From NCBI GenBank assembly GCA_001462345.1, contig LIUM01000002.1, positions 1 through 64,000 of the forward strand: a DNA stretch of 64,000 nt, given 5' to 3'. Source of the stretch: Fibrobacteria bacterium AD312 (lineage in GTDB: Bacteria; Fibrobacterota; Fibrobacteria; Fibrobacterales; Fibrobacteraceae). The translations under genes and the position numbers were made by a program. Positions 3,840 through 14,923 of the stretch are shown here, piece after piece (position 1 is the stretch's first letter; the number at the start of each line of letters is the position of its first letter). The notes beneath the pieces were generated by a model, which saw nothing but the letters and a program-made list of their open reading frames with translations, did not search any database and was not told where the DNA came from.

Positions 3840-4652
3840 CTACAAAAAAGTCAATGACTTAACAGAAATAGCCGTTTCTCCAAATAAAAAAGCCCCTTTT
3901 TTAAAAAATTCGACAGTATCGGTCGTTAAGAAGTTAGTCTTTCCCGACTTTTCAAGTTTAGAATCGACCTCTGGATGACGTTTTAAATAGTCTAGTGTTT
4001 TTTCAGCCACAATAGGGCCTTGAGAAATCAATTGTACCTTTTTTGGTAAAAATTCACGAATTTGATCTGCAATTAAAGGATAATGGGTACATCCCAATAA
4101 AACCGTATCTATATCAGGGTCTTTTTCTAATAGAGAATCCACATCTCTTTTAATAAAATAGCGAGCCCCTTCCGAATTCAATTCTCCATTTTCCACAAGA
4201 TAAGCCCAAAGAGGACATGACTGTTGAGTAACCTTTAATTTTGGAAAAAAATGTTGAATTTCAATCAAATAACTTTCTGAATAAACAGTACCAGGAGTCG
4301 CAAAAATACCAATATGCCCCGTTTTCGAATAAAAGCCAATTTCTTCTGCAGTAGGGCGAATAATTCCTAGAACTCGGCCTGAATAAGATGATTTTATTAA
4401 GTCTTGCTGCTGTATCGTTCTTAATGCACGAGCCGAAGCTGTATTACATGCAATAATCACAAGAGGACACCCTTGTTCTAATAAATAGGATACTGATTGC
4501 CAAGTATAACGATGAATCGTTTCAAAACTTCTGGATCCATAAGGAGAGCGTGCATTGTCACCTAAATACAAGAAATCATTCTCTGGAAGTACCCGACGTA
4601 ATTCGCGTAAAATGGTTAAGCCACCAAAACCAGAGTCAAAAACGCCAATCAT
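3840..4652 (-). CDS. murI: glutamate racemase MurI
   Basis: MurI interconverts L- and D-glutamate and supplies D-Glu for the second residue of the peptidoglycan stem peptide. The 270-residue product shows the FDSGFGG motif with Asp6, the first catalytic cysteine in ACNTASA (Cys69) and the second in GCTHYPL (Cys188), plus the LGDNARSPYG substrate loop. The ATG overlaps the stop codon of the upstream helicase-PlsC gene by 4 bases (ATGA), so the two are translationally coupled. This joins a cell-wall precursor enzyme with a phospholipid acyltransferase module in one transcript. A weak hairpin terminator follows. Confidence 0.96.
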   Translation of the reverse strand: MIGVFDSGFGGLTILRELRRVLPENDFLYLGDNARSPYGSRSFETIHRYTWQSVSYLLEQGCPLVIIACNTASARALRTIQQQDLIKSSYSGRVLGIIRPTAEEIGFYSKTGHIGIFATPGTVYSESYLIEIQHFFPKLKVTQQSCPLWAYLVENGELNSEGARYFIKRDVDSLLEKDPDIDTVLLGCTHYPLIADQIREFLPKKVQLISQGPIVAEKTLDYLKRHPEVDSKLEKSGKTNFLTTDTVEFFKKGAFLFGETAISVKSLTFL

Positions 4653-6796
4653 AAAGCGTCTTCCATTTGTTTCCGTATTTTAGGCATTAAATACTCTCTT
4701 ATTTTTATTTCACCTTGTTCTTTCTTTAATTCTAAAAGATCTAAAGGCTCAAGTATTCTTGCTGATACTTTACAAACTTTAGAATCTCGACGAGATTCCC
4801 ATACAGCTCTTGTTCCATGAAGAACTACAGGCAAAAGTGTAGCATCTAAATCGTCTGCCATCCTAAAACCACCACTCTTAAATGGAAGTAATTTTCCGCT
4901 TTTGCCACGAGTCCCTTCAGGAAAAATAAAAACACAAGGAATCTCTTTTGATTCAAGAATTTCTTTTTTTATTTCAAGGCCAGCCCCTTTCTTATTTCTA
5001 TTAATAAAAATGCAACCTATTTTTTTCATCCAAAAACCTAGAAAAGGAATGTACTTTAATTCTCGTTTTGCCAAAAAACCAACCGTACGAGATAATGCTA
5101 AAAAAACCACAGGAATATCTGCATACGATTGATGATTGCCTATCACAACCACTGGCCTAGACCAGTCTACTTTTCCTAACAAGGCTTGATCTTCTATAGT
5201 TAAATCGACTCGAAGAGATTTAATGCAATAGGCACCAAACGCTTGTATATGCAAATCAACCCATTGTTTAATTTTTTGGGGTTGTACTAGGCGTAGCACA
5301 GAAATTCTTAATACACCTACACCCATATAACACAAAATTTTTGTTAGAACAAATATACGAAATAAAAGTAATGGCATGATACTCTCCGGCAAAGGCTTTT
5401 CAAGGCATTTCAAAAATCTAGATTTTTTAAATGTCTCTAAACGGCCTTTCCAATGACGTTTAGTACAATATAATAAAACTAACATTGCCTCGGCTCTAGT
5501 CACCCCTACATAAAAAAGCCTACGCTCCTCTTTTATTTGTTTTTTTTGTTCTTTTCTTGAGCCCCGACAAGAGCCTGGAGTTAAATTTTCTGCTAACCCT
5601 GCATAAAAAACAACTGGATATTGTAATCCCTTGGAAGAATGCACTGTCTCTACATGAATACCCTTCACGTTCCCTTCTTCTTCATTTAATTGAAATAAAG
5701 GCAATTCATATTCTTTCAAAGCCTCTTCATAATAGATTCTTTGATGATTGTAACGTACAAGAATGGCAAATGAATCATAATCCAAATTATAATCGAGTCT
5801 CATCTCTTTAACGCACTGTACTATTTTATTCATTTCAAGTACAGGATTTTCACTTTCCCAAAATTCAGGTTTTCTGTTTTCCATAAAAAGAGCATCTTGT
5901 TTACAGTTTCCTGCTCTTAACACTTTTCGTAACATCACTGGCTTATCTGTAAAAATGCGATTTGCTAGATGTAAAATAGAAGGAGTCGATCGATAATTCC
6001 ACTCTAAACGGATTAACGTACTTTCCTTAAAATCTTTTTGAAACCGAATAATGTTACCGATATCTGCTCCACGAAAGCCATAAATAGCTTGATCATCATC
6101 TCCAACGACAAATAGATTTTTACGATTCCCAAGCAAGGCAATAACTAATCTATACTGCGCAGGATTAATATCTTGATATTCATCTACTAAAAATTCAGTC
6201 CAACGACGACGCATTTCAGTTCTAAATTCGTTGTCATTTTCTAAAAGTCGAATCGCTAGATAAATCAAATCATCAAAAACCACATGACCGCTTGAAAAAA
6301 TGGATTCTCTTACAGGAATTAATTCTTTTTCCAAACGATTCGATAAATCTAAAGAAAAAAGCTCTTCTCTAGAAACCGCCTTGGCTCCTAAACCAAAACG
6401 AACTAAATCACAGGCAAAATCACCCACATCGGATTCCACAGGAACAGGTATTTTTTTAAAACCTAAACGTTCATATCCAAAGGAATCTCCTACTTTTTCT
6501 TTTAATAAAAATAAAGCTAACGAATGAAATGTACACAATCGGACAAGAGCATCTGGAAATAAACGGCATACTCTTTCCTTCATTTCTAAAGCAGCCTTTG
6601 CTGTAAACGTTAATGACAAAATAGATTCTGGAGGAACCCCTAAAGCAATTCGATATTGAATCCTCTTTGTTAAAACAGATGTTTTCCCAGAACCAGCCCC
6701 CGCAAGAATCAATAGCTGAGCATTTTTCTCATGATCATGTAAAACGGCTTTTCTTTGGTCTGAATTTAAACCTTTTAAGATTTCTTCTATGTCCAT
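4649..6796 (-). CDS. UvrD-like helicase fused to a PlsC-type acyltransferase
   Basis: One uninterrupted 715-codon frame holds two unrelated modules. Residues 1 to about 470 are a compact superfamily 1 helicase: Q motif LNSDQRKAV, Walker A AGAGSGKT (32-39), TFTAKAALEM, DEYQD, GDDDQAIYGFRGAD, WNYRST, VHSSKGLQYP and a motif VI with VGVTRA. It is shorter than UvrD/PcrA (about 720 residues) and lacks most of the 2B region. Residues 474-715 are a complete 1-acyl-sn-glycerol-3-phosphate acyltransferase: hydrophobic N-terminus, catalytic NHQSYAD (His555, Asp560) and FPEGTRG (about 624-630). A GGAGAG lies 4 bases before the in-frame ATG at 5377, so a free PlsC of 242 residues, the normal size, may also be made. 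The fusion could be real or could reflect loss of an ancestral stop codon between adjacent genes. murI is coupled downstream. Confidence 0.85.
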   Translation of the reverse strand: MDIEEILKGLNSDQRKAVLHDHEKNAQLLILAGAGSGKTSVLTKRIQYRIALGVPPESILSLTFTAKAALEMKERVCRLFPDALVRLCTFHSLALFLLKEKVGDSFGYERLGFKKIPVPVESDVGDFACDLVRFGLGAKAVSREELFSLDLSNRLEKELIPVRESIFSSGHVVFDDLIYLAIRLLENDNEFRTEMRRRWTEFLVDEYQDINPAQYRLVIALLGNRKNLFVVGDDDQAIYGFRGADIGNIIRFQKDFKESTLIRLEWNYRSTPSILHLANRIFTDKPVMLRKVLRAGNCKQDALFMENRKPEFWESENPVLEMNKIVQCVKEMRLDYNLDYDSFAILVRYNHQRIYYEEALKEYELPLFQLNEEEGNVKGIHVETVHSSKGLQYPVVFYAGLAENLTPGSCRGSRKEQKKQIKEERRLFYVGVTRAEAMLVLLYCTKRHWKGRLETFKKSRFLKCLEKPLPESIMPLLLFRIFVLTKILCYMGVGVLRISVLRLVQPQKIKQWVDLHIQAFGAYCIKSLRVDLTIEDQALLGKVDWSRPVVVIGNHQSYADIPVVFLALSRTVGFLAKRELKYIPFLGFWMKKIGCIFINRNKKGAGLEIKKEILESKEIPCVFIFPEGTRGKSGKLLPFKSGGFRMADDLDATLLPVVLHGTRAVWESRRDSKVCKVSARILEPLDLLELKKEQGEIKIREYLMPKIRKQMEDAL
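5375..5387 (-). promoter_or_regulatory. plsC: internal ribosome-binding site and ATG for the PlsC module
   Basis: On the minus strand GGAGAG occupies 5387-5382, followed by TATC and an in-frame ATG at 5377-5375. The spacing is close to ideal and the protein that would result starts MPLLLFRIFV, a typical PlsC hydrophobic start. This suggests the acyltransferase is, or was, translated on its own. Confidence 0.6.
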
Positions 6797-8960: not shown

Positions 8961-9737
8961 TTATTTTTTCCCTAAAACACCAATACTCAATTGAGTATAA
9001 TGCATGAATGGCACAGTATCTAAAGCATCTAGAATTTGATCTTTCATTTTTTGATAAGCCGTTCCAGCAAAAGGATATTTAGGCAATTCCACATTGAATC
9101 GGAAACATAATTCTCTACACAAACGATAAAAAAGATTAGGACGCATCCAATCTCCATACGCATAAGTAATACTAAACCCGGCTTGGTTCATTAAGCCTTT
9201 TAACTGTGGCATCGTATACTGCGTTTCCCAACCAGCAAACCACTTATCAAAAGCAATCAAAATATGTTTCATTACTGTATATGGATGTATCGTCTGAGGC
9301 ACATCACAAAGGCAATGTCCCCCTTTCTTTAATATGCGATAATTTTCTCGCAGCAACGCTACAGGATCCTTAAAATGCTCCGCTAATCCTTGATGGAAAA
9401 CCAAATCAAATGTATTATCTGGAAAAGGGGAAGCAAATGCATCTCCACGAATCAAATGAATTTGATCATAGAGACCTTCTTTAATACGCAAAGAATTAAT
9501 GATTTTCAAACTATTTTCAGCAAAATCCAAAACATAAACTTCAGCGCCTCGGCGAGCAAGTTCCACACTATCTCTTCCTGTTCCCGCTCCCACTTCAAGA
9601 ATTTTCATGCCTTCTAAATTAAAATGCTTTTCTATCGATTTAAAAACCGAAGGAGAAGACGGGTAAACTTTATCCATATCGTTTTTTTGCTGCCAAAAAC
9701 GATTCCAAACCGATTGTGTAGGCTCTTTAATTGTCAT
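8961..9737 (-). CDS. class I SAM-dependent methyltransferase
   Basis: The 258-residue product has a Rossmann-like methyltransferase core: motif I ILEVGAGTGRDS near residue 46, the acidic loop VLDFAEN, motif FDLVFHQGLAEHF and the post-core RILKKGGHCLCDVP. The C-terminal third (YTMPQLKGLMNQAGF onwards) fits small-molecule or lipid methyltransferases of the Methyltransf_11/25 type. The substrate is unknown. It is first in the operon with a GT4 glycosyltransferase and an LPG-synthase-like membrane protein. The 224 bases upstream are shared with the divergent sigma factor gene. Confidence 0.85.
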   Translation of the reverse strand: MTIKEPTQSVWNRFWQQKNDMDKVYPSSPSVFKSIEKHFNLEGMKILEVGAGTGRDSVELARRGAEVYVLDFAENSLKIINSLRIKEGLYDQIHLIRGDAFASPFPDNTFDLVFHQGLAEHFKDPVALLRENYRILKKGGHCLCDVPQTIHPYTVMKHILIAFDKWFAGWETQYTMPQLKGLMNQAGFSITYAYGDWMRPNLFYRLCRELCFRFNVELPKYPFAGTAYQKMKDQILDALDTVPFMHYTQLSIGVLGKK

Positions 9738-9808
9738 AAACGCAAATATACGAATTCAATAAAAAAGAGATATTAAGCCATTCTATTTTCTTACATTTTT
9801 AATACCAT

Positions 9809-9845
9809 AGTCATTTTTATATGACTAAGTCATGCATTAATGACT
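9809..9845 (+). promoter_or_regulatory. two tandem AGTCAT-N6-ATGACT palindromes, candidate enhancer sites
   Basis: AGTCAT-N6-ATGACT occurs at 9809-9826 and again at 9828-9845, with identical arms, identical 6-base spacers and centres 19 bp apart. They lie about 56-92 bases upstream of the -24 element at 9902, the normal range for binding of a sigma-54 activator. Which activator binds is not known. Confidence 0.65.
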
Positions 9846-9900
9846 ACATTATGATATTTAAAACGTGTTTTTTTTGATGACAATTATTATTTTACACATT

Positions 9901-9916
9901 TGGCACACTCCTTGCT
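9901..9916 (+). promoter_or_regulatory. sigma-54 (RpoN) promoter of the sigma factor gene
   Basis: TGGCACACTCCTTGCT matches the -24/-12 consensus TGGCACG-N4-TTGCW at all invariant positions, with GG at 9902-9903 and GC at 9914-9915 separated by exactly 10 bases. A transcript would start near 9926, about 35 bases before the ATG at 9962, which has an AAGGAT 9 bases before it. Confidence 0.8.
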
Positions 9917-9961
9917 GATTAAAAAAGCGATATTAAAGACTGGATAAAAGGATTTTAAAGC

Positions 9962-10774
9962 ATGCATATAGATTCTACTGATACTACCCTCAAACGTTAT
10001 CTTGAAGACATTAGAAAAACAGCACCTCTTTCTAGAGAAGAAGAACAAATTCTATTTCAAAAAGCGAAAGAAGGTGATAAAATTGCACGAAAAAAATTGA
10101 TTTCAGCGAACATGCGCTTTGTTCTAAAAGTAGCCATTCAATACCGCGGTTGCCCTATTCCTCTTCCAGATCTTGTTAGTGAAGGCGCCATGGGCCTTGT
10201 TCGTGCCATTGAATCTTTTGAACACACTCGTGGCTTAAAATTCATTAGTTATGGTGTTTGGTGGATCAAAGCCTATATTACTAGAGCCATTAATGAGCAA
10301 GGTAATTTAATTCGTCTTCCTGCAAACCAACACTTACGCGTACGTAAAGCCTTGCATGAACAATCTCGCGGAAAAGAAATCAATGAAGAAATTCGTGAAT
10401 TGATTCAAATTGGGCAAAGAGGTGTTTCTTTCGATAGCCCTCTAAAAGCAGATTCTAAAGCAACATATGCCGAAGTTCTTGCTGATAATACAGCCACAAA
10501 TCCAGAAGCCGATTCAGAAATTCAAAGCGTTGAAGCTCTTGCAAGAGACCTCATGGAGCAACTCCCAGAAAGAGAAGCAAAAGTGATTACTGGTATTTTT
10601 GGTATTAATCAAGAAGCCCCTCAAACACTTAGAGAAGTGGGCGAATCAATGAATATTTCTCATGAACGTGTACGCCAACTTCGAGATCAAGCCCTTAGAA
10701 GAATTCGTAAATACAATAGCCGCGAATTCCTTCAAGAAAAGAAAGATGCTTTCTTAGCGGCAATCAATAAATAA
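9962..10774 (+). CDS. RpoD-family RNA polymerase sigma factor
   Basis: The 270-residue protein directs core RNA polymerase to promoters. It has region 1.2 (about residues 6-45), region 2 with the core-binding NMRFVLKVA and the -10 reading FISYGVWWIKAYITRAI, a region 3 start GNLIRLPANQ, and a region 4.2 helix-turn-helix ETLREV-like to ISHERVRQLRDQALRRIR. Region 1.1 is missing and region 3 is short, as in the short primary sigma factors of Bacteroidetes and in group 2 factors, so either role is possible. The sigma-54 promoter and paired palindromes upstream suggest a regulated, group 2 role. It ends at a strong hairpin terminator. Confidence 0.88.
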   Translation: MHIDSTDTTLKRYLEDIRKTAPLSREEEQILFQKAKEGDKIARKKLISANMRFVLKVAIQYRGCPIPLPDLVSEGAMGLVRAIESFEHTRGLKFISYGVWWIKAYITRAINEQGNLIRLPANQHLRVRKALHEQSRGKEINEEIRELIQIGQRGVSFDSPLKADSKATYAEVLADNTATNPEADSEIQSVEALARDLMEQLPEREAKVITGIFGINQEAPQTLREVGESMNISHERVRQLRDQALRRIRKYNSREFLQEKKDAFLAAINK

Positions 10775-10787
10775 AACTTTATGAATA

Positions 10788-10820
10788 AAAAAAGAACCCC
10801 GATTGGGGTTCTTTTTTTTT
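10788..10820. terminator. bidirectional intrinsic terminator after the sigma factor gene
   Basis: The stem AAGAACCCC / GGGGTTCTT closes a GATT loop (10801-10804) and is flanked by A-runs on the left and T-runs on the right. It therefore works for the sigma factor gene on the plus strand and for the large secreted protein gene ending at 10826 on the minus strand. Confidence 0.92.
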
Positions 10821-10825
10821 AGATG

Positions 10826-13800
10826 TTATTCATTGAGAGGCACCGTCCCTTTTTTACTGCGACGAACACCCCACTTATCAATGACTTCTTCTTCCACTGT
10901 TTTGTTTTCATATCGAGCCACGAGCTTAAATTGAACTAGATAAACTCCAGCTCCAACAAAGCGGCCAGCTCTATCTTTGAAATTCCAGTTGACAAAGAGT
11001 TTTTGATCCGTATTCAAACAGTTGCCACCGAATTTAGGACTATTACATGCAACACTTATTGTTGTGTCATTCACATATTGACCAACATGATCAAAGTACC
11101 TAACACTGAACGAAAGCATCACTTTCGCTGGATCTAATGAATCTAAAACGGAAGAGTCATATTCTCCATTGGCATCCACTTGAGCGGCGTCTACTAATTG
11201 AGGCACAAAGCGTTGACCTAATTCGACTAAATGCCCAAGAACACCTTTTTTCTCCAGATCTTCTTTTCGAGTCGTATTTGGTAAATAGCTCAATGACACA
11301 GAACTTAATTCACGAAGAGTTTCATCTTCCGAATTTAAGGAACCCATGTTCACAGAGTGAACTAATTGATTTAAGAATCCAGAAATTACTACTGGAGAAG
11401 GTAATTCACCAGCAATATTGCCTGCATTATCTTGGATTGATCCTTTATTTCCAGGAACCATCATGAGAGAATCTCCAGGAAGAATAGAATTAAACCCTGA
11501 ATTCAAAACTAACTTAGCAGTGAGCCCATCATTTGACCATTCTATTCTGGATGGAATTAAGTCAATCGTATCATTTCCATGTATGTAAGAGAAGTAATCT
11601 TTGCCATCAATCTTAGATTTGTTCACTACCTCTGAGAATTGAACAATTAACGTATCTACACCACTTCCATACCGTAGGTTAGCCCCTTTAATGACTGGAG
11701 ACATTTTATCTCTAATAATGGTATTATTTTCACCAACAAAGGTATAACCCATCACATCATAGTAGGTATAAATAGTGGCTTGCGGCATTTCATCACTAAT
11801 ACTGGTGAGACCTGTTGTTAACTTAATATCCGATTGCACATTCCAGATCACTCGAGTAGGATCTTTTGGATCTATTTCTAAGCTTGCTGGTTGAGCTTGC
11901 AATTGAATTAACATGCCTCTAAAACTATACCAAGGGAATGACATATAAAGCTTCTGCATATCCTTTTGAGATATGGTATCGGCAAATACAGTTACAATTT
12001 GATCAAGAATACCATCGCCATCAGTATCATAATATTCCACATATTGAGCACTAGGCAAACGATCGGTTACTTTTACAACAATTTGGCGACTATATTCATC
12101 GGATGTCATATATGGTAAATTAGTGAACGAGATATTTGGATATAAAGATACGCTATCTCGATCCGCTCCTCTTAAGCCAAGAGAATCTCCTGTAATCACG
12201 ATGAGGTTTTTAGTAGGCATTGAAATAGAGCTCACCTGATCTAAATCAAATCCATTTTTATTTAACATGACTATAAAGTCAGCCTGTGAAACATCTGCTG
12301 GCAATAAGTCTATGTTGAACTCAATAAACAAGGAGTCTTGACCAGAATCATTTCGAATAGCATAAGCTTGCTTAATTACATGACCGCCTACTTCTACAAG
12401 AGAGGCTTCTCGTTTATAAGAAGTACCTGTTTCTGAATCCGTATAGGTGAGAATGGCATAAGCATCTTTCGGGAAATTCTCAGGGAAAACTAAACTAGTC
12501 ACATCTGCAGTAATGCGATCCTTATTCAAATTAGGAACAGAAGTGACTTCTAAAGTATCTCCATTGATCACAATTGACATTGCAGTGACAGTCATTTTTG
12601 AAGGTAATGGTTCTGTGAGAACCACCTCGACCATATCTAGTTTTCCATCTCCTTCAGAATCTTTAATAAAGCCAACTAAAGCATCTGGGATAGGGTCTAT
12701 AAAATTAAAGCCATCAAAAATAACCGTTTCCCCTAATTCGTTTTGAATATATATCTGACCGCCATTTACAACAGAGTCACTAGTGACATATATTTTTACA
12801 TCTCCACCTGAAGAAACGACAGTGGTTTTGGTGGATGGATCGCTTGCTTTATTAGGATCCACCAATTGAACACCACCAACACCTGTAATAAAGATGGAAT
12901 CTCCTGCACCTACACCCAAATATTCAAGCAACTTCTCTGCAGAGATAGTCACCTCTATTACTTGCCCCACATTAACGGGTTCTTTATCAGAGCCATTGTT
13001 CACACCAAAGCCATCTAAAGAAATACCTGGTGTAGTCAAATCATAGACATTACCACCAATGGTAATCGTTCCAGGTGTACCAGGTTCTGCGTCCACTGGA
13101 TTTAATACAGTACCGCCAACAACAATCGAGTCTCCTTTTTCTCTCTTATCATCACTAGGATAAGGGAGAGGATCGTCGTCATCATCAAGATCAAAATCAT
13201 CAAATCCAGTATATTGCTTACTAGAAGAACTAGAGAGGTCTGTATCATCTCCAGAACCAGAACCATTTCCAGAACTTGAAGAACTACTTAAATCATCTCC
13301 AGAACCAGAACCATTTCCAGAACTTGAAGAACTACTTAAATCATCACCAGTTCCAGAACCACCTGATGAGCTACTTGTGCCTGTGCCACCTGAAGAACTA
13401 CTTGTTCCTGGGACACCTGAAGAACTACTTGTTCCTGGGATACCTGAAGAACTACTTGTTCCTGGGATACCTGAAGAACTGCTTGTTCCTGGGACACCTG
13501 AAGAACTACTTGTTCCTGGGATACCTGAAGAGCTGCTTGTGCCTGTGCCACCTGATGAGCTACTTGTGCCTGTGCCGCCTGATGAGCTACTTGTGCCTGT
13601 GCCACCTGATGAGCTACTACTTGTCACACTACTAGAAGATGATAATACAGCATGACTACTTGAACTATAGTTACGGCTACTACTGGAGTAATCTTCATCT
13701 GTGCCCGTAGAGGCGTTATGCCTTGAAGAACCCACTCCAGAAAGAGGAGCCACATCATCCAAATAATTATCAAGCCATTGCATATGGATATGGACATTGT

Positions 13801-14923
13801 CATTAATGTACTTGTTTGGATTAGAGGTATAATCGATAAAAATCAAATGGCCTGTATTACTTGCCACAAATAAGTGTCCTAAACCATCTACAGTACCCTG
13901 ATCCAAGCGCCAACCCACATAACCATTATCATTGGTTCTAGGCTCTGTTAAATTTTCAAGGGATTCAATAAAAAAGTACTGACGTAAATCAATCGTAGCC
14001 ACCACTTTTCTAGTTCTTGGGTCAATTTGAACGATTTTTGATCCACCAAAAACAAAGATTGTCTTTGAATAAGTATCATACGTACCACCATGAGCACCTT
14101 CTAATGAATCAATTAAGATACTTGTTTGAATGGTATCAATGGCACTACCCTTTGCCCCTTGAGGAATCGTATCGGAGAACATGCCAAAATGTGCTTTTGC
14201 CCTAGCTGCTTTTTGTTGTGCATCACTACACAAAGTTCCTGAGCTACTTGCCTCACAACCACCGCCAAAATAATCAGAATAAGTGTAAAAAGCCGTACCA
14301 TCTTCATCCCAGATAATCGTAGATAATCTGTCTGCTTTAAAACGAGTGTTTGGTACTTTTTGTTTTAATCCAACCTGTTTAGCATCACGTAAACTAGAAT
14401 TTGCTGGATCCGTCACAGTCCTATAAGAAGCAAGAGTTCCTGGAATACCAGCACCCCATAACACTTCATTGGTTGGATCCATCATCAAATGATAGTTTCC
14501 TGTCCTATCTCCCGTATTATTTCCTGTAACTGTTTTCACAAGACATTTATTACCTGGGCCTACCGTTTTGTTGACTTTATGAATTTTAGATCCTTGCGCA
14601 GCAATTAATAAATCGTTATCTGGATGATGCACAATACCATCGGCACCAACAAGACCATCTGTCGTTTTACACAAAGTGACCTTATTTGATAGCTGCAAAT
14701 AGCCATTGCCATCATAATAATAATCCACACTTTTTACACGATTTTCTTTACTATAAAGCGTATAATAAAGAGTTGCAGACGTTGGATTAGATGGGTACAA
14801 CGTACCAACCTGCTGAATCCAAATACCAGTTCCTGCTGAATAAGGAGGATCTATTGTTTGAGCTTGAGCTCCAAAGGAAATGAGCAGAAGGCTCATCAAT
14901 ATAAATTTTAATTGCTTTTTCAT
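10826..14923 (-). CDS. giant secreted protein with poly-serine repeat linker and C-terminal FlgD-like Ig domain
   Basis: The 1365-residue product has a signal peptide (residues 1-21, ending AQA). Residues about 25-395 read like repeated beta-propeller blades (GADGIVHHPDNDLLIAAQG). A serine-rich linker of about 180 residues follows, built from GTSSSSGGT/GTSSSSGIP nonapeptides and GDDLSSSSSSGNGSGS units, then an Asp-rich segment. The C-terminal half holds DGDG-type calcium-binding loops (DTDGDGILDQ), SbsA-like Ig domains and a final FlgD-type Ig strand set (DRAGRFVGAGVYLVQF). It is paralogous, in its C-terminal half, to the protein encoded just upstream (21-base gap), and a GGAGGAT ribosome site precedes the ATG. 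Surface attachment or carbohydrate contact is likely; the exact role is unknown. Confidence 0.8.
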   Translation of the reverse strand: MKKQLKFILMSLLLISFGAQAQTIDPPYSAGTGIWIQQVGTLYPSNPTSATLYYTLYSKENRVKSVDYYYDGNGYLQLSNKVTLCKTTDGLVGADGIVHHPDNDLLIAAQGSKIHKVNKTVGPGNKCLVKTVTGNNTGDRTGNYHLMMDPTNEVLWGAGIPGTLASYRTVTDPANSSLRDAKQVGLKQKVPNTRFKADRLSTIIWDEDGTAFYTYSDYFGGGCEASSSGTLCSDAQQKAARAKAHFGMFSDTIPQGAKGSAIDTIQTSILIDSLEGAHGGTYDTYSKTIFVFGGSKIVQIDPRTRKVVATIDLRQYFFIESLENLTEPRTNDNGYVGWRLDQGTVDGLGHLFVASNTGHLIFIDYTSNPNKYINDNVHIHMQWLDNYLDDVAPLSGVGSSRHNASTGTDEDYSSSSRNYSSSSHAVLSSSSSVTSSSSSGGTGTSSSSGGTGTSSSSGGTGTSSSSGIPGTSSSSGVPGTSSSSGIPGTSSSSGIPGTSSSSGVPGTSSSSGGTGTSSSSGGSGTGDDLSSSSSSGNGSGSGDDLSSSSSSGNGSGSGDDTDLSSSSSKQYTGFDDFDLDDDDDPLPYPSDDKREKGDSIVVGGTVLNPVDAEPGTPGTITIGGNVYDLTTPGISLDGFGVNNGSDKEPVNVGQVIEVTISAEKLLEYLGVGAGDSIFITGVGGVQLVDPNKASDPSTKTTVVSSGGDVKIYVTSDSVVNGGQIYIQNELGETVIFDGFNFIDPIPDALVGFIKDSEGDGKLDMVEVVLTEPLPSKMTVTAMSIVINGDTLEVTSVPNLNKDRITADVTSLVFPENFPKDAYAILTYTDSETGTSYKREASLVEVGGHVIKQAYAIRNDSGQDSLFIEFNIDLLPADVSQADFIVMLNKNGFDLDQVSSISMPTKNLIVITGDSLGLRGADRDSVSLYPNISFTNLPYMTSDEYSRQIVVKVTDRLPSAQYVEYYDTDGDGILDQIVTVFADTISQKDMQKLYMSFPWYSFRGMLIQLQAQPASLEIDPKDPTRVIWNVQSDIKLTTGLTSISDEMPQATIYTYYDVMGYTFVGENNTIIRDKMSPVIKGANLRYGSGVDTLIVQFSEVVNKSKIDGKDYFSYIHGNDTIDLIPSRIEWSNDGLTAKLVLNSGFNSILPGDSLMMVPGNKGSIQDNAGNIAGELPSPVVISGFLNQLVHSVNMGSLNSEDETLRELSSVSLSYLPNTTRKEDLEKKGVLGHLVELGQRFVPQLVDAAQVDANGEYDSSVLDSLDPAKVMLSFSVRYFDHVGQYVNDTTISVACNSPKFGGNCLNTDQKLFVNWNFKDRAGRFVGAGVYLVQFKLVARYENKTVEEEVIDKWGVRRSKKGTVPLNE
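13245..13340. repeat. two direct 48-bp repeats in the serine linker
   Basis: Two nearly identical 48-bp units start at 13245 and 13293 and code for the SGDDLSSSSSSGNGSG type linker. A third partial start lies at 13341. Confidence 0.85.
13362..13620. repeat. 27-bp tandem repeat array, about 9.6 copies, in the serine linker
   Basis: Units beginning CCTGA recur every 27 bases at 13362, 13389, 13416, 13443, 13470, 13497, 13524, 13551, 13578 and 13605. Each codes for nine residues of the type GTSSSSG(IP/VP/GT). Units are close to identical, so copy number could change by slippage without breaking the reading frame. Confidence 0.92.

Follow-up and report, generated by a model that had tools for sequence, protein, structure and literature searches.

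A predicted enhancer-dependent sigma-54 promoter upstream of a conserved sigma-70-family sigma factor gene in the Fibrobacterota

In the Rrp2-RpoN-RpoS system of Borrelia burgdorferi, the gene of a sigma-70-family sigma factor is under the control of a sigma-54 promoter and an activator of the NtrC type (PMC11109971; PMC1976401). Rrp2 is the only bEBP of this organism, and the title of a study cited in the first of these sources describes the activation of the rpoS promoter as enhancer-independent (PMC11109971). A survey of 1,628 genomes reports that sigma-70/32-type sigma genes of COG0568 and COG1191 are consistently associated with sigma-54 promoters, and Fibrobacter is not mentioned in its main text (PMC12316311). 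The Fibrobacterota are major gut cellulose degraders whose gene regulation is little known, and a search of the full-text literature for Fibrobacter combined with either sigma-54 or RpoN turned up no work on a Fibrobacter sigma-54 regulon.

We have analyzed a window of 64 kb, the whole stretch of DNA under study, from the Fibrobacter genome assembled as Fibrobacteria bacterium AD312. Genome-wide searches covered its 2.83-Mb assembly of 50 contigs. An open reading frame at 9962-10774 (+) encodes a sigma-70-family sigma factor of 270 aa with regions 1.2, 2, 3 and 4 (Pfam PF00140, PF04542, PF04539 and PF04545). Read from the sequence, a probable ribosome-binding site (AAGGA, 9948-9952, +) precedes the gene, and a probable intrinsic terminator, AAAGAACCCCGATTGGGGTTCTTT with a T run (10791-10819, +), lies 3′ of it. 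The divergent open reading frame at 8961-9737 (-) is a methyltransferase-like gene, a conserved neighbor present in 67 of 80 loci. Elsewhere in the window a 715-aa ORF (4649-6796, -) resembles in sequence a UvrD/Rep-type helicase fused to a PlsC-like acyltransferase, and a 1365-aa ORF (10826-14923) contains a repeated Ser-rich GTSSSSG stretch at 13336-13655 and a C-terminal part that is conserved in many loci.

The sigma gene is preceded by a near-perfect -24/-12 element, TTGGCACACTCCTTGCT. Its core TGGCACACTCCTTGCT occupies 9901-9916 (+), with the -24 GG at 9902-9903 and the -12 GC at 9914-9915, and thus has exactly the GG-N10-GC spacing that an earlier note on this DNA had described. The start of the transcript is predicted near 9927, and a conserved GCGATATT lies at this putative +1 (9927-9934, +). 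The stretch 9700-10000 gave no promoter of the sigma-70 type, and the alternative that the gene is transcribed from such a promoter was dropped on this ground. Across the genome the pattern TGGCAY-N5-TTGCW has 20 matches, compared with 3 for the reversed control, and several of the 20 lie inside ORFs. The earlier note had named the lack of rpoN as a possible refutation; the gene is present as a single copy in the window genome (G000:C50:33385, E 5e-53), as it is in 25 of 25 other genomes checked. Five strong bEBPs are encoded in the window genome.

Some of the other sigma-54 boxes in this genome lie close to recognizable genes. Boxes are found just upstream of groES-groEL (G000:C49:26363, L118) and of an Hsp20-like gene (G000:C46:158232, L116); for Bacteroidota, sigma-54-dependent groES and grpE are reported in PMC12316311. 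The boxes at G000:C23:26438, 37766, 38015 and 40387 (L109-L112) and at G000:C29:18720 (L113) precede glnK-amtB and genes for glutamate synthase, a type III-like glutamine synthetase, CTP synthase and a SpoVG-like protein, and a NifA-like bEBP adjoins amtB. About 850 bases past the end of the window, a sigma-54 activator gene lies beside a Ser/Thr-kinase-like gene (G000:C2:64848-65339).

The best orthologues of the sigma gene are found in Fibrobacter MAGs. We compared 81 orthologous upstream regions, comprising that of the window and those of 80 further loci. The sigma-54 box is kept in 74 of the 81, where in most cases the start codon follows it after 51-65 bp, and its A, TT and GC columns are invariant in all 60 of the distinct sequences that were aligned. 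The box search demanded the GG and GC columns and left A and TT free, so the weight of this result rests on the other invariant columns. All nine distant Fibrobacteria (L085-L093) keep GG-N10-GC, with different flanking bases. The sequence GATATT follows the -12 C by 12-14 nt in 65 Fibrobacteraceae regions and is not kept in the distant genomes. Seven of the 81 regions have no box. We had predicted that genomes without the promoter would be without rpoN, and this was wrong: rpoN is retained in every box-less genome, so that loss of the box is not explained by loss of rpoN. In three of the box-less loci (L083, L096 and L098) the divergent gene has come within about 100 bp.

Upstream of the core are two exact copies of AGTCAT-N6-ATGACT with their centers 19 bp apart, AGTCATTTTTATATGACT at 9809-9826 and AGTCATGCATTAATGACT at 9828-9845 (motif scores 17.3 and 15.2). 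The arms are identical and the six central bases differ. These candidate activator sites are centered about 90 and about 110 bp upstream of the predicted start, i.e., at enhancer distance as had been claimed. The exact sequence did not occur in 60 shuffles of the window. The earlier note had proposed a genome search for further pairs next to sigma-54 promoters; the two copies at 9809-9845 are the only exact ones in the 2.83-Mb genome. With the core, rpoN, bEBPs and sites at enhancer distance all present, comparison of sequences supports the assignment of this region as a sigma-54-dependent promoter.

Is the palindrome itself conserved upstream of the orthologues, or does it fail there, which the earlier note had named as another possible refutation? 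A de novo search by palindromic expectation-maximisation over 43 dereplicated orthologous regions, with the gap left free from 0 to 12, recovered it, selecting a gap of 6 and the half-site TGTCAT with a score of 267, compared with 58-82 for shuffles. Gaps of 8, 10 and 12 scored 255, 240 and 207 as register-shifted forms of the same gap-6 dyad, and gaps outside its own register scored 131-169. No better dyad was found in these regions by the free-gap search. The recovered palindrome has the 20-bp form TTGTCAT-N6-ATGACAA, and additional sites are over-represented 19-20 bp from the best site in the orthologues, about two helical turns. A genus-wide search for TGTCAT...ATGACA that covered three genomes gave no match. 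The distant genomes L087, L088, L089 and L092 have a dyad GTCAY-N5-RTGAC, in three copies each with identical steps of 105 and 30 bp, and L093 has three such sites with steps of 104 and 22. L085 and L086 have the sigma-54 box and lack the palindrome.

We surveyed 34 genomes for copies of the 20-bp motif that depart from it at no more than one position, and inspected 19 loci. Near-perfect copies are few: 13 of the 19 were at the sigma gene, five were within ORFs, and one was intergenic elsewhere. No recurrent target other than the sigma gene emerged across the 34 genomes, and in the window genome a strong palindrome accompanies none of the 19 further sigma-54 boxes. Because near-perfect copies occur almost only at the sigma gene, the predicted binding protein looks dedicated to it.

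The product of this gene had been called RpoD-like. Its membership of the sigma-70 family is borne out, and the RpoD assignment is not. The best NCBIfam match is to the RpoS model TIGR02394, with 195.8 bits against a cut-off of 378.7, and the RpoD model TIGR02393 gives 159.6 bits against a cut-off of 354; both are below cut-off. The window genome encodes three further sigma-70-type proteins, and the most RpoD-like is the one on contig 42, with 189.8 bits on TIGR02393, likewise below the cut-off of 354. The safest label is that of an alternative, group-2-like sigma factor that is neither RpoS nor clearly RpoD. The protein is strikingly conserved, with an identity of 90-100% for most of the Fibrobacter loci, about 70-74% for distant Fibrobacteria, and about 71-74% for the nine distant genomes that keep the box.

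We infer from its distribution and sequence that the best candidate for the activator is an NtrX-like AAA+ protein encoded behind proC on contig 19, outside the window (the L008 type). It was present in all 20 Fibrobacteraceae surveyed, is full-length in this family, and turned up in every genome with the palindrome that was checked. Among the distant genomes it is the clear best match, the helix-turn-helix (HTH) included, in the five that have N5 sites and in no others. Other bEBPs apart from the L009 type considered below come and go. Only generic AAA+ matches were obtained in the promoter-less L074, L082, L083 and L096 and in the palindrome-less L085 and L086, where the L008 type was undetected; many of the genomes are incomplete metagenome assemblies, so that this is not proof of absence. 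No palindrome was found at the operon of the activator itself in the loci scanned, and autoregulation was dropped as a possibility for this reason.

The candidate activator of the window genome has Walker A, GAFTGA and FLDE motifs (PF00158, 6.3e-66). Its GAFTGA is intact, and distant orthologues have GAFSGA. It scores 253.2 bits on the NCBIfam NtrX equivalog, below the cut-off of 600. A distant orthologue (L222) gives a Pfam receiver match of 2.9e-15, and three Fibrobacteraceae L008-type proteins tested give none. The receiver acidic pair is lost in all Fibrobacteraceae aligned, and Asn replaces Asp at the phosphorylation position in the window genome; both features are intact in the distant orthologues shown. 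A receiver-like fold is still predicted by AlphaFold (mean pLDDT 86), and the top structural matches include NtrC1 and full-length NtrX of Brucella abortus (5m7p, 459 columns). Given this degeneracy, the Fibrobacteraceae protein likely carries a pseudoreceiver with an input other than phosphorylation.

The recognition helix provides a further comparison. The form RTA[LF][YH]N is found in 31 of 34 palindrome-positive genomes and in one of nine negative genomes (Fisher p about 1e-5). Corrected for the tree, there are three well-supported independent contrasts, 1.6 in the same direction and none opposite (sign test p 0.5), so that the covariation is not significant, the contrasts being too few. 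A prediction of the helix fixed before the final survey held in eight of nine named palindrome-positive genomes, L064 being the exception, and for the named palindrome-negative genomes that have an L008 orthologue. Two genomes, L070 and L073, were first listed as negative and are weakly positive under the later dyad rule. L064 and L073 have the palindrome yet the helix RPAL; L070 is likewise an exception, with a weaker palindrome, and L068 has the helix RTAL with a weak site. The L064 bEBP shares 83% identity with its counterpart in L070, of an F. intestinalis-like clade, and the L064 sigma DNA is nearest to another Fibrobacter lineage; this assembly (G051) may therefore be mixed or chimeric. 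In L029, L031 and L041 the helix reads RTTL in place of RTAL, and looser N5 forms, TTGTTAC-N5-GTAACAA for example, have taken the place of the N6 dyad, which is possibly a natural change of specificity.

Could another bEBP occupy the palindromes within the same sigma-54 cascade? The most plausible is the single-domain PspF-like L009 type (G000:C3), comprising AAA+ and HTH only, which is present in nearly all Fibrobacter genomes examined. In the window genome its start codon is closely preceded by a site with a score of 12.9. Such a site is, however, missing upstream of the L009 orthologues that could be scanned, and the idea that L009 is a self-regulating activator was dropped on that account. 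Moreover, genomes that share the palindrome differ in the L009 helix (SRGSL, SRSNL, SRGCV), and SRGSL is retained where the palindrome is missing; the distant genomes with N5 sites have no clear L009 orthologue. We consider this reading rather unlikely.

It is also improbable that the sigma-54 promoter is real and the palindromes are operators through which an unrelated dimeric regulator represses or modulates it. Inverted repeats are indeed typical of many dimeric regulators, but the sites here are tandem repeats set about two or three helical turns apart at the distance of an enhancer, and they are found together with a bEBP whose occurrence follows theirs. Furthermore, activation of a sigma-54 promoter normally calls for an activator site, for which the free-gap search offered no better dyad.

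With no more than about 70 bp between the first palindrome and the start of the conserved methyltransferase gene, the sites might serve that gene and not the sigma gene. We regard this as very unlikely. The neighbor is absent from all the distant genomes L085-L093, which do have the sigma-54 box, and in L087-L089, L092 and L093 the N5 sites are present without it, leaving the sigma gene as the common factor; conversely, L082, L083, L096 and L098 keep the neighbor and have neither the sites nor the promoter. Finally, a fortuitous GG-N10-GC beside a fortuitous repeat is hardly credible, for although a -24/-12 match alone is not rare, its phylum-wide conservation with invariant columns refutes this, and identical pairs of perfect 6-N6-6 palindromes within 60 bp, of which the window has one, are expected only 0.017 times per shuffled window.

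The reading that we favor, and think likely, is an enhancer-dependent sigma-54 promoter at which the dedicated NtrX-like L008 protein, acting on the tandem palindromes, switches on the gene of a sigma-70-family sigma factor. The activator would bind the two palindromes as dimers and form an AAA+ ring, which would reach the sigma-54 RNA polymerase at -24/-12 by looping of the DNA and open the promoter. In Fibrobacteraceae the signal would probably be other than phosphorylation. The sigma product would then redirect RNA polymerase, in a cascade from sigma-54 to the sigma-70 family such as the earlier note had proposed. Sequence comparison supports the promoter, the sites, rpoN, their conservation and the near-exclusive targeting; the identity of the activator, the looping step, the signal and what is controlled by the sigma factor are inferences. 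The conserved promoter and paired sites predict two-step control across much of the phylum.

A deeply conserved cascade of one activator and one sigma gene is a concrete, testable way into a global regulator in the Fibrobacterota. The members of the activator family form a natural series in which to study both the loss of phosphorylation control in a two-component activator and the joint change of operator spacing, N5 in distant genomes and N6 in Fibrobacteraceae, and recognition helix. More tentatively, we suggest that much of the phylum may have a sigma factor, among the most conserved that it possesses, wired to sigma-54 by a near-single-target activator, whose receiver has in one family become a phosphorylation-independent sensor and whose helix and operator have changed together. 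Should this sigma factor turn out to be a major one, general transcription would have sigma-54 at its head.

How does this locus compare with known systems? TyrR-type boxes have the form TGTAAA-N6-TTTACA. The palindrome shares their 6-N6-6 geometry and TGT...ACA ends, and differs in the core of the half-site (TGTCAT); no TyrR-like activator was identified in the window genome. The candidate activator is predicted to share with NtrX (5m7p) a receiver-like fold, an AAA+ domain and a C-terminal helix-turn-helix, but it falls below the NCBIfam cut-off (253 vs 600), its receiver is degenerate in Fibrobacteraceae, and it is proC-linked. The comparison with Borrelia made in the earlier note holds in principle, in that a sigma-54 promoter and an NtrC-type activator, here a candidate, act on a sigma-70-family sigma gene. 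It is nevertheless a loose parallel, because rpoS activation there is enhancer-independent, whereas the strongly conserved paired sites argue against such activation here; this genome also encodes five bEBPs, and its sigma factor is below the RpoS cut-off. The 1,628-genome survey, in the text available, gives no activator, paired sites or lineage-wide conservation for the Fibrobacter sigma gene (PMC12316311). Sigma genes driven by sigma-54 are thus known in kind, while a lineage-wide, enhancer-dependent version appears undescribed. As judged from the sequences, the novelty lies in a promoter that is conserved lineage-wide, in a tandem enhancer that is conserved as well, and in a candidate activator that looks dedicated.
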